From: Haloplasmatales bacterium 4B
GTDB taxonomy: Bacteria > Bacillota_I > Bacilli_A > Haloplasmatales > Haloplasmataceae
Reading direction: 5' to 3'
Length of the DNA stretch: 61,296 nucleotides
Assembly (NCBI GenBank): GCA_003586005.1
Contig: NSKI01000012.1
Location: 1-61,296 of the forward strand
The notes under the pieces were generated by a model that saw only the letters and a list, made by a program, of their open reading frames with translations, was not told the origin of the DNA and searched no databases. Position numbers and translations under genes: made by a program. Position 1 is the first letter of the stretch. Every line of letters starts with the position of its first letter. This document shows, piece by piece, positions 10,048 to 59,030 of the stretch.

Positions 10048-10091
10048 ATATAAAAAATTCTAGAGTGTATTACTCCAGAATTTTTTATATT
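10048..10091. terminator. Bidirectional terminator
   Basis: Long stem (AATATAAAAAATTCT.GAGT with one mismatch) around a short GTATT loop. A-rich and T-rich flanks serve both convergent genes. Confidence 0.85.
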
Positions 10092-11928
10092 AGTATAATT
10101 TTTGTGTTTTTTCCTCAATAAATTGATTAGTATATAAGCGATAATAATAACCACCTAATTTAAGTAATTCGTGATGATTACCTTGTTCAACAATTTTCCC
10201 ATCCCTAACAACTAAAATCTTATCACTTGATACAATTGTTGAAAGTCTATGAGCTATTATGAAACTAGTTCTACCATGCAGTAATTTATCAATAGCTTTT
10301 TGTACTTTCATTTCTGTTTCAGTATCAATTGAGGATGTTGCTTCATCTAAAACAAAGATTGCTGGGTCAGCTAAAATAGCTCTAGCAAAGGATATGAGTT
10401 GTTTTTGTCCTGTTGATAGTCTTCCGCCACCTTCGCCAACTTCTGTTTCATAACCCTTCTCAAATCCAGTAATAAAATCATGGGCATCTACCAATTTAGT
10501 TGCTTCTATTACTTCCTCATCTGTCGCTTCAAGTCTACCATAACGGATGTTTTCCATAATTGTCCCACTAAACAGATGCGGACTTTGTAAAACATAACCT
10601 AAGTTTGAGTGTAACCAACCTAATGAACGGTTTCGATAATCTACATCGTCGATTAGAATACTACCTTCAGTTGGTTCAAAAAAGCGACAAATCAAATTAA
10701 CGACTGTACTTTTACCTGCCCCTGTTTCACCTACTAAAGCGATAGTTTCACCAGCATCTACTTTTAAGTTAAAATTTTCCAAGATATTTTCATCTTCGTT
10801 ATATCTAAATGTCACATCTTTAAATTCAACTTTTCCTTGTATTTTTTCCCAATTTTCTCTTTTGAAATCTAAGAAGTCACCATATTTTAGTATTACTTCC
10901 TCATTATCAATTATATCTGGTTCAGTTTCTAATAGTGATAAAAGTCGTTCTGCTGATGCCTGAGCTTGTTGTAATTCAGCCAAAACTCTTGCAAGTTGTA
11001 ATATTGGATCAAAAAATTGAGTTGAATAAGTAATAAATAATGATAATGTTCCAACAGAGATAGCACCAATTAAATAATAATTACCACCATAATATATTGC
11101 TAATCCTGTTCCTACAAAACCTAAAATTAATACAACAGGGAAAAATAATGATGATATTATTGCCGCCCTAATTGACTTTGATCTCATCGAACTCGTTAAA
11201 CGATCAAATTCGTTTAAGTTCTTTTCTTCAAGCACTAATGTTTTTGATGTTTTAGCTCCAGTAATCCCTTCATTAAATGATCCGGTAATTTTAGAATTAA
11301 TTTTTCTTACTTCACGATAAAGTCTTAACATCATTTGTCTAAAAACGATACTAATAATTATTATCACTGGTGTAACTGCTAGGGTAATAAGTGCTAATTT
11401 AACATTTATCACAAACATTACAACAGATATTGAGACCATCATCATTAAGCCCCAACTCATATCAATTAATCCCCAAGAGATAATTTCACTTAATCTTTTC
11501 GCATCGCTTGTTAGCCTAGCCATAATCCATCCTACTGGAGTATTGTTAAAATAGGAAAATGATAATGATTGTAGTTTTTCAAAAGCAGATTTTCTTAAAC
11601 TATATGATAGTTCAACTTCTATTGTTCCTGCGAATTTTATGAAAGCGAATATGAAGATTGTTTGTAATATCGCAAAAACTAAAAATGAAGCACCAAATTT
11701 ATATAAAATAGATCTATCTAGAGGAACACCTTCTATTAGTGAATCTTCTACGTAATCTATTACCCAACGATTTAATAGCGGAAATATCGCATCAAATGCG
11801 GCAATTATTAATACGCATATTACACCAAGGATAATATATTTTTTTAGAGGGGCTAAATATTTAAAGATTTTTTTCCATGTTTTAATATTTATACTTGTAG
11901 AAAAATCTTGTTCTTGAAAGTCTTGCAT
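10090..11928 (-). CDS. ABC exporter half-transporter, catalytic subunit (BmrD/YheH-like)
   Basis: 612 residues: a six-helix exporter-type membrane domain (about 30-330) followed by an ATPase domain. Walker A is GETGAGKST and Walker B VLDEATSS with catalytic E529. The signature is LSTGQKQL, deviating from the canonical LSGGQ. The partner gene upstream has a canonical signature but Asp in place of the catalytic Glu. Degenerate and consensus sites therefore complement each other, as in BmrCD-type heterodimers. It starts 2 nt after the partner's stop. Substrate probably drugs or lipids; not determinable here. Confidence 0.87.
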   Translation of the reverse strand: MQDFQEQDFSTSINIKTWKKIFKYLAPLKKYIILGVICVLIIAAFDAIFPLLNRWVIDYVEDSLIEGVPLDRSILYKFGASFLVFAILQTIFIFAFIKFAGTIEVELSYSLRKSAFEKLQSLSFSYFNNTPVGWIMARLTSDAKRLSEIISWGLIDMSWGLMMMVSISVVMFVINVKLALITLAVTPVIIIISIVFRQMMLRLYREVRKINSKITGSFNEGITGAKTSKTLVLEEKNLNEFDRLTSSMRSKSIRAAIISSLFFPVVLILGFVGTGLAIYYGGNYYLIGAISVGTLSLFITYSTQFFDPILQLARVLAELQQAQASAERLLSLLETEPDIIDNEEVILKYGDFLDFKRENWEKIQGKVEFKDVTFRYNEDENILENFNLKVDAGETIALVGETGAGKSTVVNLICRFFEPTEGSILIDDVDYRNRSLGWLHSNLGYVLQSPHLFSGTIMENIRYGRLEATDEEVIEATKLVDAHDFITGFEKGYETEVGEGGGRLSTGQKQLISFARAILADPAIFVLDEATSSIDTETEMKVQKAIDKLLHGRTSFIIAHRLSTIVSSDKILVVRDGKIVEQGNHHELLKLGGYYYRLYTNQFIEEKTQKLY

Positions 11929-11930
11929 TT

Positions 11931-13730
11931 TTACTTCACCTCATTTAAATTGAAATCTTCGTCAATAGCTGTTTGGATTTCAAAGATTTTCTTATATACT
12001 TTTTTATTTTGAATTAACTCATTATGAGTACCCATTTCAATAATTTTACCATCTTCTAATACGATGATTTTATCTGCTTCCATCGCAGTAGCTATTCTAT
12101 GAGTAATAATAATTTTTGTTAGTTTGTTTGACCGTTTGGCCAAGGCATTTCTAATTGATAAATCAGTTTCTGTATCAACAGCACTTAAAGAATCATCAAA
12201 AATTAAGATAGGTAAATTTTTAACTAACATCCTTGCTATTGCAACACGTTGTTTTTGCCCACCTGACAATGTTACACCACGCTCACCAATTAAAGTGGTA
12301 TAGCCTTTATCAAAGTGAATTATATCCTCATGAATTGAAGCAATTCTTGCCGCTTTATGGATTGATTCTTCATCGGGATTATCTGATATAATTCCAATAT
12401 TATCGAATATAGTTTTTGAAAATAGAAATGGTTCTTGTAAAACTATTCCGATATTTTTTCTTATCCATTGTTTATCTATTTCTTTTAACTCTACACCGTC
12501 AATTTGGATTGATCCACCTGTATAGTCGTATAATCTGACTAATATATGAGCTAGTGTAGATTTTCCACTACCAGTTTTTCCAATAATCGCCACTGTTTCA
12601 CCTTTGTTAATATTAAACGATATGTCTTTTAAAGTAGGAACATTGGAATCACTAAAAACAAAATCAACATGATTAAATGTAATATTACCTTTAACCTCAG
12701 GTTTTAATAAGTCATTATTTTCATATTCATCTTTTTCATCTAATACTTCTTGAATACGTTTAACAGCAACTGTACTTTTACCTAAATCAACAATTATCCT
12801 TGCTAATTGACGAATAGGCCATAATACGTAATTAATAAAGATTGAGAAAGCGATTAAATCTCCTAAGGATATTACACCAGTTAAGGCAAAATATGAACCT
12901 ACTACTATTGTTAATCCAATTTGTAGTAAACAGATCAAATCTGAGGCTGACCAATAAAATGCCATATAATTAATAATCTTTTGTACGTTATCACTATATT
13001 TACGACTATAACTTTCAAAACGTTCTATTTCATGTTTCTCTCTTGCAAATGCTTTTACTACTCTAATACCTGTTAAGTTTTCTTGTAATGAAGTGCTCAT
13101 TTTACCTTCAGATTCATCAGTTTCAGTAAATACTTTTTGAATTTTTTTGAAGAATATTAAAGCAAATGAAAAGATTATTGGAACTACAGCTAATGAGATT
13201 AGCGTCATTAAGGTATTTATTGTGAACATTTGAATTAAAACGAAAACAAAAAGAAAAATTATTCTAAACATTTCAGGTAATTGGTTGCCAATAAAACCTC
13301 TGATTGTATCAACATCTGATGTGCTTCTTTGGATTAAATCACCAGTTTCTGCATGTGTATGATAAGAATATGATAATTTTTGAATATGATCATATAAACG
13401 AACTCGAATCTTATAAGCTACACTTTCAGAAAAAACAGCGTTAGATCTTCCTGATATAAACATAAAGAAAGCTCGGAAAAATTGTAAAGTTACAAGTACA
13501 ATGCCTAGATATAATAATTGTTTTAATTGTGTAGGTCCTTTGTCAATAAAATAAGTAAATAAATTAGGTAACTGCGTTGGCTCACCTTTAAATATTGAGT
13601 CAACAGCGTGTTTATAAAATAATGGAATTAGTGTTAATGTGTAAGTCACAAATATTAACGAAATGATTGACATTAATAGATAAATAATATCGTTTTTGAT
13701 CCAACTGTAGATTGTTTTTGTATACTTCAT
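11931..13730 (-). CDS. ABC exporter half-transporter with degenerate ATPase site (BmrC/YheI-like)
   Basis: 599 residues, six-helix membrane domain then ATPase. Walker A is GKTGSGKST, the signature LSGGQKQR, and Walker B ILIFDDSLSAVD with D513 where the catalytic glutamate should be. This Glu-to-Asp change is the hallmark of the non-catalytic partner of heterodimeric exporters. First structural gene of the exporter operon. Its ATG (13730) follows AAAGGGTGG. Between the promoter and this gene lie a 27-codon leader ORF and two terminator hairpins, so expression is probably controlled by attenuation. Confidence 0.88.
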   Translation of the reverse strand: MKYTKTIYSWIKNDIIYLLMSIISLIFVTYTLTLIPLFYKHAVDSIFKGEPTQLPNLFTYFIDKGPTQLKQLLYLGIVLVTLQFFRAFFMFISGRSNAVFSESVAYKIRVRLYDHIQKLSYSYHTHAETGDLIQRSTSDVDTIRGFIGNQLPEMFRIIFLFVFVLIQMFTINTLMTLISLAVVPIIFSFALIFFKKIQKVFTETDESEGKMSTSLQENLTGIRVVKAFAREKHEIERFESYSRKYSDNVQKIINYMAFYWSASDLICLLQIGLTIVVGSYFALTGVISLGDLIAFSIFINYVLWPIRQLARIIVDLGKSTVAVKRIQEVLDEKDEYENNDLLKPEVKGNITFNHVDFVFSDSNVPTLKDISFNINKGETVAIIGKTGSGKSTLAHILVRLYDYTGGSIQIDGVELKEIDKQWIRKNIGIVLQEPFLFSKTIFDNIGIISDNPDEESIHKAARIASIHEDIIHFDKGYTTLIGERGVTLSGGQKQRVAIARMLVKNLPILIFDDSLSAVDTETDLSIRNALAKRSNKLTKIIITHRIATAMEADKIIVLEDGKIIEMGTHNELIQNKKVYKKIFEIQTAIDEDFNLNEVK

Positions 13731-13792
13731 TCATACCACCCTTTAAAAAAAATTTAAATTTATATTATTAATGTTAATTTTCTCCATAAAAA

Positions 13793-13822
13793 AATAGGAG
13801 AATGTGTCTACATACTCCTATT
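13793..13822 (-). terminator. Attenuator terminator 2 before the ABC exporter
   Basis: Minus-strand stem AATAGGAG (13822-13815) with CTCCTATT (13800-13793), extended inside by ATGT/ACAT pairing and followed by a run of T (13794-13788). It lies 63 nt before the exporter start codon, so it must be read through for expression. Confidence 0.85.
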
Positions 13823-13837
13823 ATTATATAAATTTAT

Positions 13838-13873
13838 AAAAATAAAAACAGGAGTCCTTAACAGAAAGACTCC
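13838..13873 (-). terminator. Attenuator terminator 1 before the ABC exporter
   Basis: Minus-strand stem GGAGTC (13873-13868) with GACTCC (13856-13851) followed by TGTTTTTATTTTT. Its 3' arm (ACTCCT) is also complementary to AGGAGT in the 5' arm of the next hairpin, giving an alternative antiterminator pairing. Confidence 0.75.
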
Positions 13874-13912
13874 AAAAAAAGACAATAATGTTACATATAT
13901 CTTATTTGTAAG

Positions 13913-13996
13913 TTAAAAAGAAACCTTCTGTGAAGACAATGATAGATTGTATTCAGTTATTTTATTCATTACATTTGCATTTAATTTATTAATCAT
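13913..13996 (-). CDS. Leader peptide of the ABC exporter operon
   Basis: 27-codon ORF (begins MINKLNANVM, ends SSQKVSF) with a near-perfect Shine-Dalgarno GGAGGTGA 8 nt before the ATG. It sits 41 nt downstream of a consensus promoter and upstream of two tandem terminators and the exporter genes. The arrangement is like the bmrB leader of Bacillus subtilis bmrCD, where translation of a short peptide controls terminator read-through when ribosome-targeting drugs are present. The peptide has no recognisable homology. Position, RBS and downstream hairpins are the evidence. Confidence 0.7.
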   Translation of the reverse strand: MINKLNANVMNKITEYNLSLSSQKVSF

Positions 13997-14037
13997 TCTC
14001 TTCACCTCCGAATCTTATTTTTATTTCATGCTTTATT

Positions 14038-14066
14038 ATTTTAACAATGTAAATTCTAATTGTCAA
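14038..14066 (-). promoter_or_regulatory. Consensus sigma-A promoter of exporter leader
   Basis: Minus strand TTGACA (14066-14061), 17-nt spacer, TAAAAT (14043-14038). The start point would fall about 30 nt upstream of the leader-peptide ATG. Confidence 0.85.
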
Positions 14067-14189
14067 CAATTTCCTTAAAAAAATTTTTTTTTTGCGAATA
14101 ATATATTATATGACCACGAGTTTATAATATGTTAGATAGTTTAATTTTGTGATATAATATAAATAATTATTTTAGAAATGGAGTTACAT

Positions 14190-14504
14190 ATGACAAATAT
14201 TAGAGAGATTACTGAGGTTAATGAAGTAATTAATAATGATTTAGCTGTTATTATTGCAAAATCAAAGAATTGTTCTGTTTGCAAACCAGTTTCAGAAAAT
14301 TTAGAAAATTTAATGAAAAATTACCCAAACGTACTATTGTATAGTATATATATTGAAGAACTAGAAATGTTTAGTGGACAATTTTTGGTTTTTACAGTTC
14401 CTACGATACTTATCTTTTCTGGTGGAAAAGAATTATTAAGGGAATCCCGATTTATTAATTTTAGTAATATTAAGAGGTTGTTAGACAATTATAGCCAGAA
14501 ATAA
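14190..14504 (+). CDS. Thioredoxin-like protein
   Basis: 104 residues with thioredoxin-fold layout. The active-site motif is CSVC (in SKNCSVCKPV, about residue 28). The cis-proline segment is FTVPTILIF, and the strand-helix ending matches the family. CxxC thioredoxin-like proteins of this size act as disulfide reductases. The middle two residues (SV) are atypical compared with GP, so redox potential and partner may differ. ATG 14190 has GGAG 6 nt upstream. surE follows after 16 nt, probably co-transcribed. An extended -10 (TGATATAAT) at 14150-14158 is the likely promoter. Confidence 0.8.
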   Translation: MTNIREITEVNEVINNDLAVIIAKSKNCSVCKPVSENLENLMKNYPNVLLYSIYIEELEMFSGQFLVFTVPTILIFSGGKELLRESRFINFSNIKRLLDNYSQK

Positions 14505-17735: not shown

Positions 17736-17975
17736 AAAAAAAGATGCAATTAGCATCTTAGCCAATTGCATCACAACTTAATAATAAAATAGAAAGGGAG
17801 AAGATGCAATTGATAGCGCCAATACTTTTTACAGTAGAGAGTACTACAAGTATTCCTTGTAGTCCCACAAACTTTATATGCCTATAAAACTTGTTCGGCG
17901 ATGTATACCTTTCAAATGTATCAAAGCATGCCTGCTCCACATTTTACTTATTTGCATCGCAACCTCTATCAATTT
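17736..17975 (-). promoter_or_regulatory. Lysine riboswitch (L box) with transcription terminator
   Basis: The minus-strand leader carries L-box core strings in order: AGAGGTTGCGATG, AGTAA, GAAAGG then ATCGCCGAAC, a TGGGAC, and ACTGT. P1 is nine perfect pairs, AATTGATAG (17974-17966) with CTATCAATT (17816-17808). The terminator is GATGCAATT (17772-17764) with AATTGCATC (17751-17743) followed by T7. An antiterminator can form between CAATTGCATC (17812-17803) and GATGCAATTG (17772-17763). The antiterminator shares bases with the P1 3' strand, so lysine binding should free the terminator. Confidence 0.93.
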
Positions 17976-17990
17976 TTATGTATGTGAAAT

Positions 17991-58849: not shown

Positions 58850-58879
58850 AACAGTTGGCTCTTCTAAAAAATTAAAAAA

Positions 58880-59030
58880 CTAAAGCGCCAGGACTTGTTA
58901 ATAGTTGACGAGGGGAAGGTTTATCGAAAAATTCGGCGGATACCTTCTAGTATTCATCAATGCTAAAAGCTATTTCACAAAACTTATTGGTAACTTTAAG
59001 GACAAAGGAAATGGCATGATGTTAGGGAGC
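58880..59030 (+). ncRNA. glmS ribozyme (glucosamine-6-phosphate riboswitch)
   Basis: Conserved core is readable in order: AAAGCGCCAGGACTTG with the cleavage site between A58884 and G58885, GTTGACGAGG, GGTTTATCGA, TTCGGCGGATACC, then GGACAAAGG and AAATGGCATGATG...GGGAGCC. It lies directly before glmS. Glucosamine 6-phosphate activates self-cleavage and lowers glmS mRNA. Confidence 0.96.

Follow-up and report, generated by a model that had tools for sequence, protein, structure and literature searches.

A probable ribosome-responsive transcription attenuator upstream of a heterodimeric ABC exporter in Haloplasmataceae

Organization of the exporter locus

The window analyzed here is a stretch of 61,296 nucleotides (contig NSKI01000012.1) from Haloplasmatales bacterium 4B, whose genome (G000) measures 2.26 Mb and counts an uncultured Haloplasmataceae MAG among its close relatives. 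On the minus strand of this window, a promoter is followed by a leader open reading frame (ORF) with its Shine-Dalgarno sequence (SD), by two terminators (T1 and T2), and by two exporter genes that start at position 13730 (Table 1). A first-pass annotation of the DNA had listed the same parts, namely a promoter, a 27-codon ORF with a ribosome binding site, two terminators, and the exporter genes, and all of them were confirmed. The promoter ranked first among 68 sites in a 9-kb promoter scan, and comparable TTGAC(A/T) promoter-like sites lie 5' of the leader in the relatives whose loci were examined upstream of the exporter. Because the nearest ORF 5' of the promoter (14178-14504) lies on the plus strand, T1 and T2 can act only on the leader's own transcript. 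The product of this divergent ORF beside the exporter promoter is a small protein resembling thioredoxin (its score of 30 bits is below the family cut-off), and a stretch similar to the ORF is also present upstream in G003.

Table 1 Features of the exporter locus (all on the minus strand of the window).
Feature	Position	Description
Promoter	14038-14066	TTGACA-17-TAAAAT; 11/12 consensus matches; TG before the second hexamer
A'	14010-14016	AAGATTC; 5' of the leader SD; can pair with C, extending the anti-antiterminator
A	13991-14009	SD GGAGGTGAAG and start region AATGAT; 5' strand of the anti-antiterminator
Leader SD	14000-14009	GGAGGTGAAG
Leader ORF	13913-13996	27 codons, MINKLNANVMNKITEYNLSLSSQKVSF; stop included
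B	13930-13943	ATCATTGTCTTCAC; within the leader ORF; pairs with A
C	13920-13931	ACAGAAGGTTTC; last part of the leader ORF; pairs with D as the antiterminator strand
T1	13851-13873	9 bp, then TGTTTTTATTTTT; -10.3 kcal/mol; U-rich tail to about 13838
D	13861-13873	5' arm and loop of T1
E		3' arm of T1
T2	13795-13820	Followed by TTTTTTTA; -9.6 kcal/mol
F		5' arm of T2; can pair with E
ABC exporter subunit 1	11931-13730	599 aa; regulated gene; degenerate Walker B FDDSLSAVD
ABC exporter subunit 2	10090-11928	612 aa; heterodimer partner; canonical Walker B LDEATSSID

Judging from their sequences, the genes at 10090-13730 encode a heterodimeric ABCB-type pump. The exporter had been called BmrCD-like, a description that holds for this heterodimeric ABCB-type architecture but not for the closest kinship: chains of Sav1866, TM288, and TmrB score above BmrC/YheI with subunit 1 and TmrA scores above YheH with subunit 2, so that by these scores BmrC/BmrD is not the closest solved relative of either subunit, and the RNA anatomy is also unlike that of bmrB.

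Two other regulatory RNAs were seen in the window. A lysine riboswitch (17806-17976, minus strand; Rfam, 90 bits), followed by a terminator (17772-17743), precedes an operon encoding a substrate-binding protein, a permease, and an ATPase, with a terminator-like hairpin (16872-16846) between the binding-protein and permease genes; a glmS ribozyme lies at 58873-59025 on the plus strand (Rfam, 98 bits).

Conservation of the element

When the region was folded alone, its z-score of -1.5 was not exceptional and was uninformative; the case for an attenuator rests on comparison. Orthologues of the exporter with the same upstream layout occur in all eight Haloplasmataceae genomes compared (69-77% identity to the window protein). 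The comparison upstream of orthologous exporters that had been proposed as a check returned the leader ORF, T1, and T2 at all eight loci, with both terminators and their U tracts located between the leader and the exporter gene, and the element is present in each of these genomes (6 genera) as a single copy, always at this exporter.

A covariance model of the 5' part of the element identified exactly one convincing copy per genome in the eight Haloplasmataceae genomes, always at the exporter; since the model was trained on these copies, what is informative is that no others appeared. Nothing convincing was retrieved from 52 other genomes of the class, and the exact-motif and covariance-model searches (198 and 60 genomes) gave none beyond one per Haloplasmataceae genome. 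Weak matches in G060 and G019 look like chance, as does one in G011 after inspection of its sequence, and a second blast match within the window's own genome (C12, 67 nt, E 4e-4) covered only promoter-like AT-rich sequence. Rfam, at gathering and relaxed thresholds, gave no relevant family and no match at the locus.

Exporter orthologues more distant than Haloplasmataceae are without the element. Before one of these orthologues (L020, in G011) we observed a different leader ORF, MSNLVFNKLVIPVIYITNVIPVSFSTLSEGTLF, followed by a terminator of -21.4 kcal/mol, the 5' arm of which begins within the final codons of that ORF; attenuators may have evolved repeatedly in front of exporters of this subfamily. 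Before another (L017, in G021) lie a promoter-like TTGACA, a 77-codon ORF, and a terminator of -10.1 kcal/mol, perhaps another attenuator.

A conserved leader RNA read in three frames

The leader ORF, with its SD, lies between promoter and structural gene and is open at all eight loci (24-32 codons), whereas the remaining two frames are closed at each of them; from shuffled loops, the product of chances of eight open leaders is 1.4e-6 if the loci are treated as independent. Across the family, little or no variation is seen in GGAGGTGAAG and in a (G/A)TCTTCAC string near the 3' end of the ORF. Five genomes, however, read through this string in frame 2, two (of one genus) in frame 0, and one in frame 1, which yields C-termini that are SLSSQKVSF-like, (N/I)VFT-like, or HCLHRDFF depending on the genome. 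Since the frame in which this RNA is read changes between genomes, with all three represented, it is the RNA that is conserved and not the peptide; translation of the leader appears to be kept, the peptide sequence not. Notwithstanding these frame differences, every genome has its stop codon 22-33 nt past the first base of the (G/A)TCTTCAC core, with the consequence that a terminating ribosome always covers C.

These observations bear on two explanations in which the sequence of the leader itself matters. The peptide could, through a C-terminal SLSSxxDSF, sense a drug or metabolite and stall the ribosome near the end of the ORF, as in ErmC, ErmK, or MsrD. Five of the eight leaders do share a C-terminus SLSS(Q/R/H)(K/G/R)(V/D)(S/T)(F/I/L), but the other three read the same RNA in other frames (NVFTDRFF, IVFTRDSF, HCLHRDFF), which leaves no conserved leader peptide among the eight loci, and a late stall would, according to the computations below, cover C and favor termination at all eight; we consider such an arrest peptide very unlikely. 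Alternatively, an amino-acid-specific attenuator similar to that of trp would sense charged tRNA through a run of regulatory codons. The combination of a leader with a terminator and the richness of the leaders in Asn, Lys, and Ile would fit, yet the codon content is AT-driven and varies by genome with no shared run of a single codon, and the regulated genes encode exporter subunits rather than biosynthetic enzymes, making this explanation scarcely credible.

Alternative pairings of the leader RNA

The C strand can pair with D in a duplex of -11.2 kcal/mol in the window and of -9.1 to -14.4 kcal/mol across the eight loci, and the best partner of D within the whole leader is found at the same place in every case. 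The two strands covary: a permutation test of own against cross-locus partners gave p=0.0003 with 8 loci, and exact p values of 0.0083 (6/720) and 0.0028 (2/720) were obtained with one locus per genus, whereas C:T2 and B:D had no support (permutation p 0.98 and 0.66). The native C also pairs better with D than shuffled C does (Fisher's combination 2e-9, for loci that are not independent). The terminator segments and their boundaries were picked by eye ahead of the permutation tests, which comprise only 8 sequences, and the pairing p-values ignore the tree, except in the one-per-genus tests.

Upstream, AUCAUUGUCUUCAC is complementary to the SD and start codon (in the window, GUGAAGA.AAUGAU), and the resulting A:B duplex places the start region of the ORF inside an anti-antiterminator at all eight loci (-11.3 to -17.3 kcal/mol; 96% of alignment cells paired). 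As A:B hardly varies, the alignment speaks for its conservation rather than proving it by covariation. For A':C, 3 of 7 pairs changed on both sides and 75% of the alignment cells are paired; the covariation is only suggestive, with a permutation p of 0.025 or 0.36 depending on the choice of loci.

The pairing noted in the first-pass annotation was a different one, between the 3' arm of the first hairpin (E; ACTCCT) and the 5' arm of the second (F; AGGAGT), and was presented as a switch of the 1:2 / 3:4 versus 2:3 type. E:F is present in the window (-11.8 kcal/mol, p=0.015 with dinucleotide shuffles), good in G004 and G005 (p=0.006 and 0.005), and borderline in G001 (0.05), but it is not significant at the other four of the eight loci by the same shuffles. 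Moreover, E:F offers no step by which a ribosome would open hairpin 1, whereas C:D supplies one and is universal. The pairing thus stands for the window and three relatives only, and the switch is incomplete without C:D, and a mechanism that relies on E:F to the exclusion of C:D is most improbable.

A second pairing involves T2 at other loci. B is complementary to T2 over up to 11 bp in G002 and G007 and 8 bp in G003, and B:T2 is supported at 6 loci (Fisher 3e-7), the window and G006 not being among them. The permutation p is 0.27 with the 5' half of T2 only and 0.019 with the whole loop, both values being given because the whole-loop segment was chosen after looking; with one locus per genus, p ranges from 0.003 to 0.011. 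The way of overcoming T2 differs between loci. It is possible, and we propose it tentatively as somewhat doubtful, that the released leader stretch is a bipartite antiterminator in which C disarms T1 and B disarms T2 within a single nested structure, the ORF being free to drift between frames while only the ribosome position is read.

Predicted dependence on ribosome position

We modeled co-transcriptional folding at the 8 loci by computing partition functions as the transcript lengthens through T1, with the ribosome footprint blocked. With a ribosome at the start codon, C:D is computed to form before T1 at all eight loci, only partially in G007 (L011), which is the weakest, and to remain the favored pairing until the T1 3' arm lacks only its last few bases. 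For a ribosome located at the stop codon, C:D is about 0 at all eight, and a late stall would likewise cover C and favor termination at each of them. In a stall scan of the window, C:D was obtained with P-site codons 1-5 and was about absent at later codons. Without a ribosome, A:B hides C completely in the window and partly in G001, G002, G004, G005, and G007, but in G003 and G006 C is not hidden and C:D forms anyway, so an off state in the absence of ribosomes is clearly predicted only for the window.

With the antiterminator strand at the end of the ORF and the anti-antiterminator over the SD and start codon, the stall site has to be early, within codons 1-5. The distance of about 40 nt between the leader stop and hairpin 1, which had been flagged as a complication, was measured correctly (39 nt in the window; T1 begins 23-67 nt past the stop across the eight loci), but it is immaterial since the regulated strand is the leader ORF's own end, and the scan places the on-range early in the ORF.

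Once completed, T1 beats C:D at equilibrium at all eight loci, and antitermination must therefore be kinetic: C would pair with the arm and loop of T1, leaving the 3' arm no foothold. C:D would accordingly be an antiterminator mutually exclusive with T1, with a predicted dependence on ribosome position. That T1 is the equilibrium winner in all states, together with the whole-region z-score, could also mean that the tandem terminators merely damp a constitutive promoter and that the leader ORF and the alternative pairings are incidental. Against this stand eight open leaders out of eight with the same geometry, the covarying C:D, and the conserved pairing of the SD with B, and we regard damping as highly improbable.

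Proposed mechanism

We favor, with a probability of roughly 75%, a ribosome-responsive transcription attenuator of anti-antiterminator/antiterminator/terminator layout, located before the exporter and switched on by a stall at an early codon. A translation-responsive attenuator upstream of an ABC exporter had already been proposed, and it is strongly supported by the leader and T1/T2 at eight of eight loci and by the covarying alternative pairings. During unimpeded translation, the ribosome would reach the 3' end of the ORF and cover B and C while T1 forms, and T1, then T2, would terminate transcription. In the absence of a ribosome, the SD and start region would pair with B, and A' with C, so that C would be inaccessible and the window element would stay off. 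A ribosome stalled on the first codons, during initiation or early elongation, would occupy A and release B and C, and the released C would capture D, the 5' arm and loop of T1, before the 3' arm has been synthesized. T2 could then be engaged by the 3' arm left free in T1 (in the window) or by the free B (in several relatives), and RNA polymerase would transcribe into the exporter operon. The leader would thus report blocked initiation or early elongation, whatever the peptide.

Beyond the observed anatomy, conservation, covariation, and frame drift, we infer transcription and termination at the element, its inducer, and the substrate of the exporter. The inducers are likely translation inhibitors, above all those that hold ribosomes on or close to the start codon; the exporter would export these inhibitors or related toxic compounds. 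Lincosamide- or pleuromutilin-type drugs are predicted to be good inducers, as they have been shown to be for vmlR (PMC9226507). At two loci of another family of the class (L014 and L015, in G018 and G029), an ABC-F gene lies immediately upstream, its end abutting the exporter orthologue, and the ABC-F of L015 matches the NCBIfam ribosomal protection-like model NF000355 above cut-off; this neighbor gives a weak hint that ties the exporter to ribosome-targeting compounds.

Relation to known attenuators

Systems of the same logic that respond to antibiotics have been described, at least in outline, for vmlR of Bacillus subtilis, rli53/lmo0919, rli59/lmo1652, and bmrB (PMC9226507, PMC8079631, PMC7154746, PMC4191407). 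vmlR (PMC9226507) shares with the window the early-stall logic, a uORF start region inside the anti-antiterminator, a released sequence that forms the antiterminator, and a uORF peptide sequence of little importance. Its uORF starts with AUGAUUAAC, as does the leader of G003, and the window leader (AUGAUUAAU) differs only at the ninth base. However, in vmlR an ABC-F gene is the target, and the leader has a 3-codon uORF with an unpaired SD, a NusG pause, and a single terminator, whereas the element described here has a 24-32-codon ORF, a paired SD and start codon, two terminators, and a heterodimeric ABC exporter.

The Listeria elements rli53/lmo0919 and rli59/lmo1652 (Dar et al. 2016, via PMC8079631 and PMC7154746), compared here by their description, also have the anti-antiterminator/antiterminator/terminator layout and a small ORF before an ABC transporter gene. 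According to these accounts, translation inhibitors cause read-through at both and Rli59 responds to several drugs, and the rli53 ORF is of 3 aa, against 24-32 codons here. With a leader of this length in place of a three-codon uORF, the element is not a member of the rli53/vmlR type and only works alike.

The bmrB-bmrCD system of B. subtilis (PMC4191407) similarly combines a leader ORF and transcription attenuation before a heterodimeric ABC exporter, and translation of its leader is needed for induction. Its terminator, antiterminator, and anti-antiterminator lie inside a 54-codon ORF, whereas here T1 begins past the leader stop, with no terminator inside the leader ORF at any of the eight loci. 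Overall, the logic of the element appears closer to that of rli53/lmo0919 and vmlR than to that of bmrB. erm(K) of B. licheniformis (Kwak 1991, cited in PMC4335068) resembles the window in that two adjacent intrinsic terminators come after its leader peptide, but is described in that source as depending on a specific MRLR stall peptide, whereas the leader peptide here is not conserved. As far as these descriptions go, none of vmlR, rli53, erm(K), and bmrB appears to combine two terminators and frame drift with a long leader ORF that forms the loop of an anti-antiterminator sequestering the SD, and we class the element as its own variant of ribosome-mediated transcription attenuation, set apart from these four families.

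In summary, this element, which Rfam does not model and which the structure given here makes searchable, would extend ribosome-sensing attenuation to the Haloplasmataceae, a family for which our literature search gave no attenuator. The drift of the leader between frames provides natural evidence that such a switch can read the position of the ribosome without reading the peptide sequence. The attenuator would also link an uncharacterized ABC exporter to translation stress, suggesting compounds with which the exporter may be tested.
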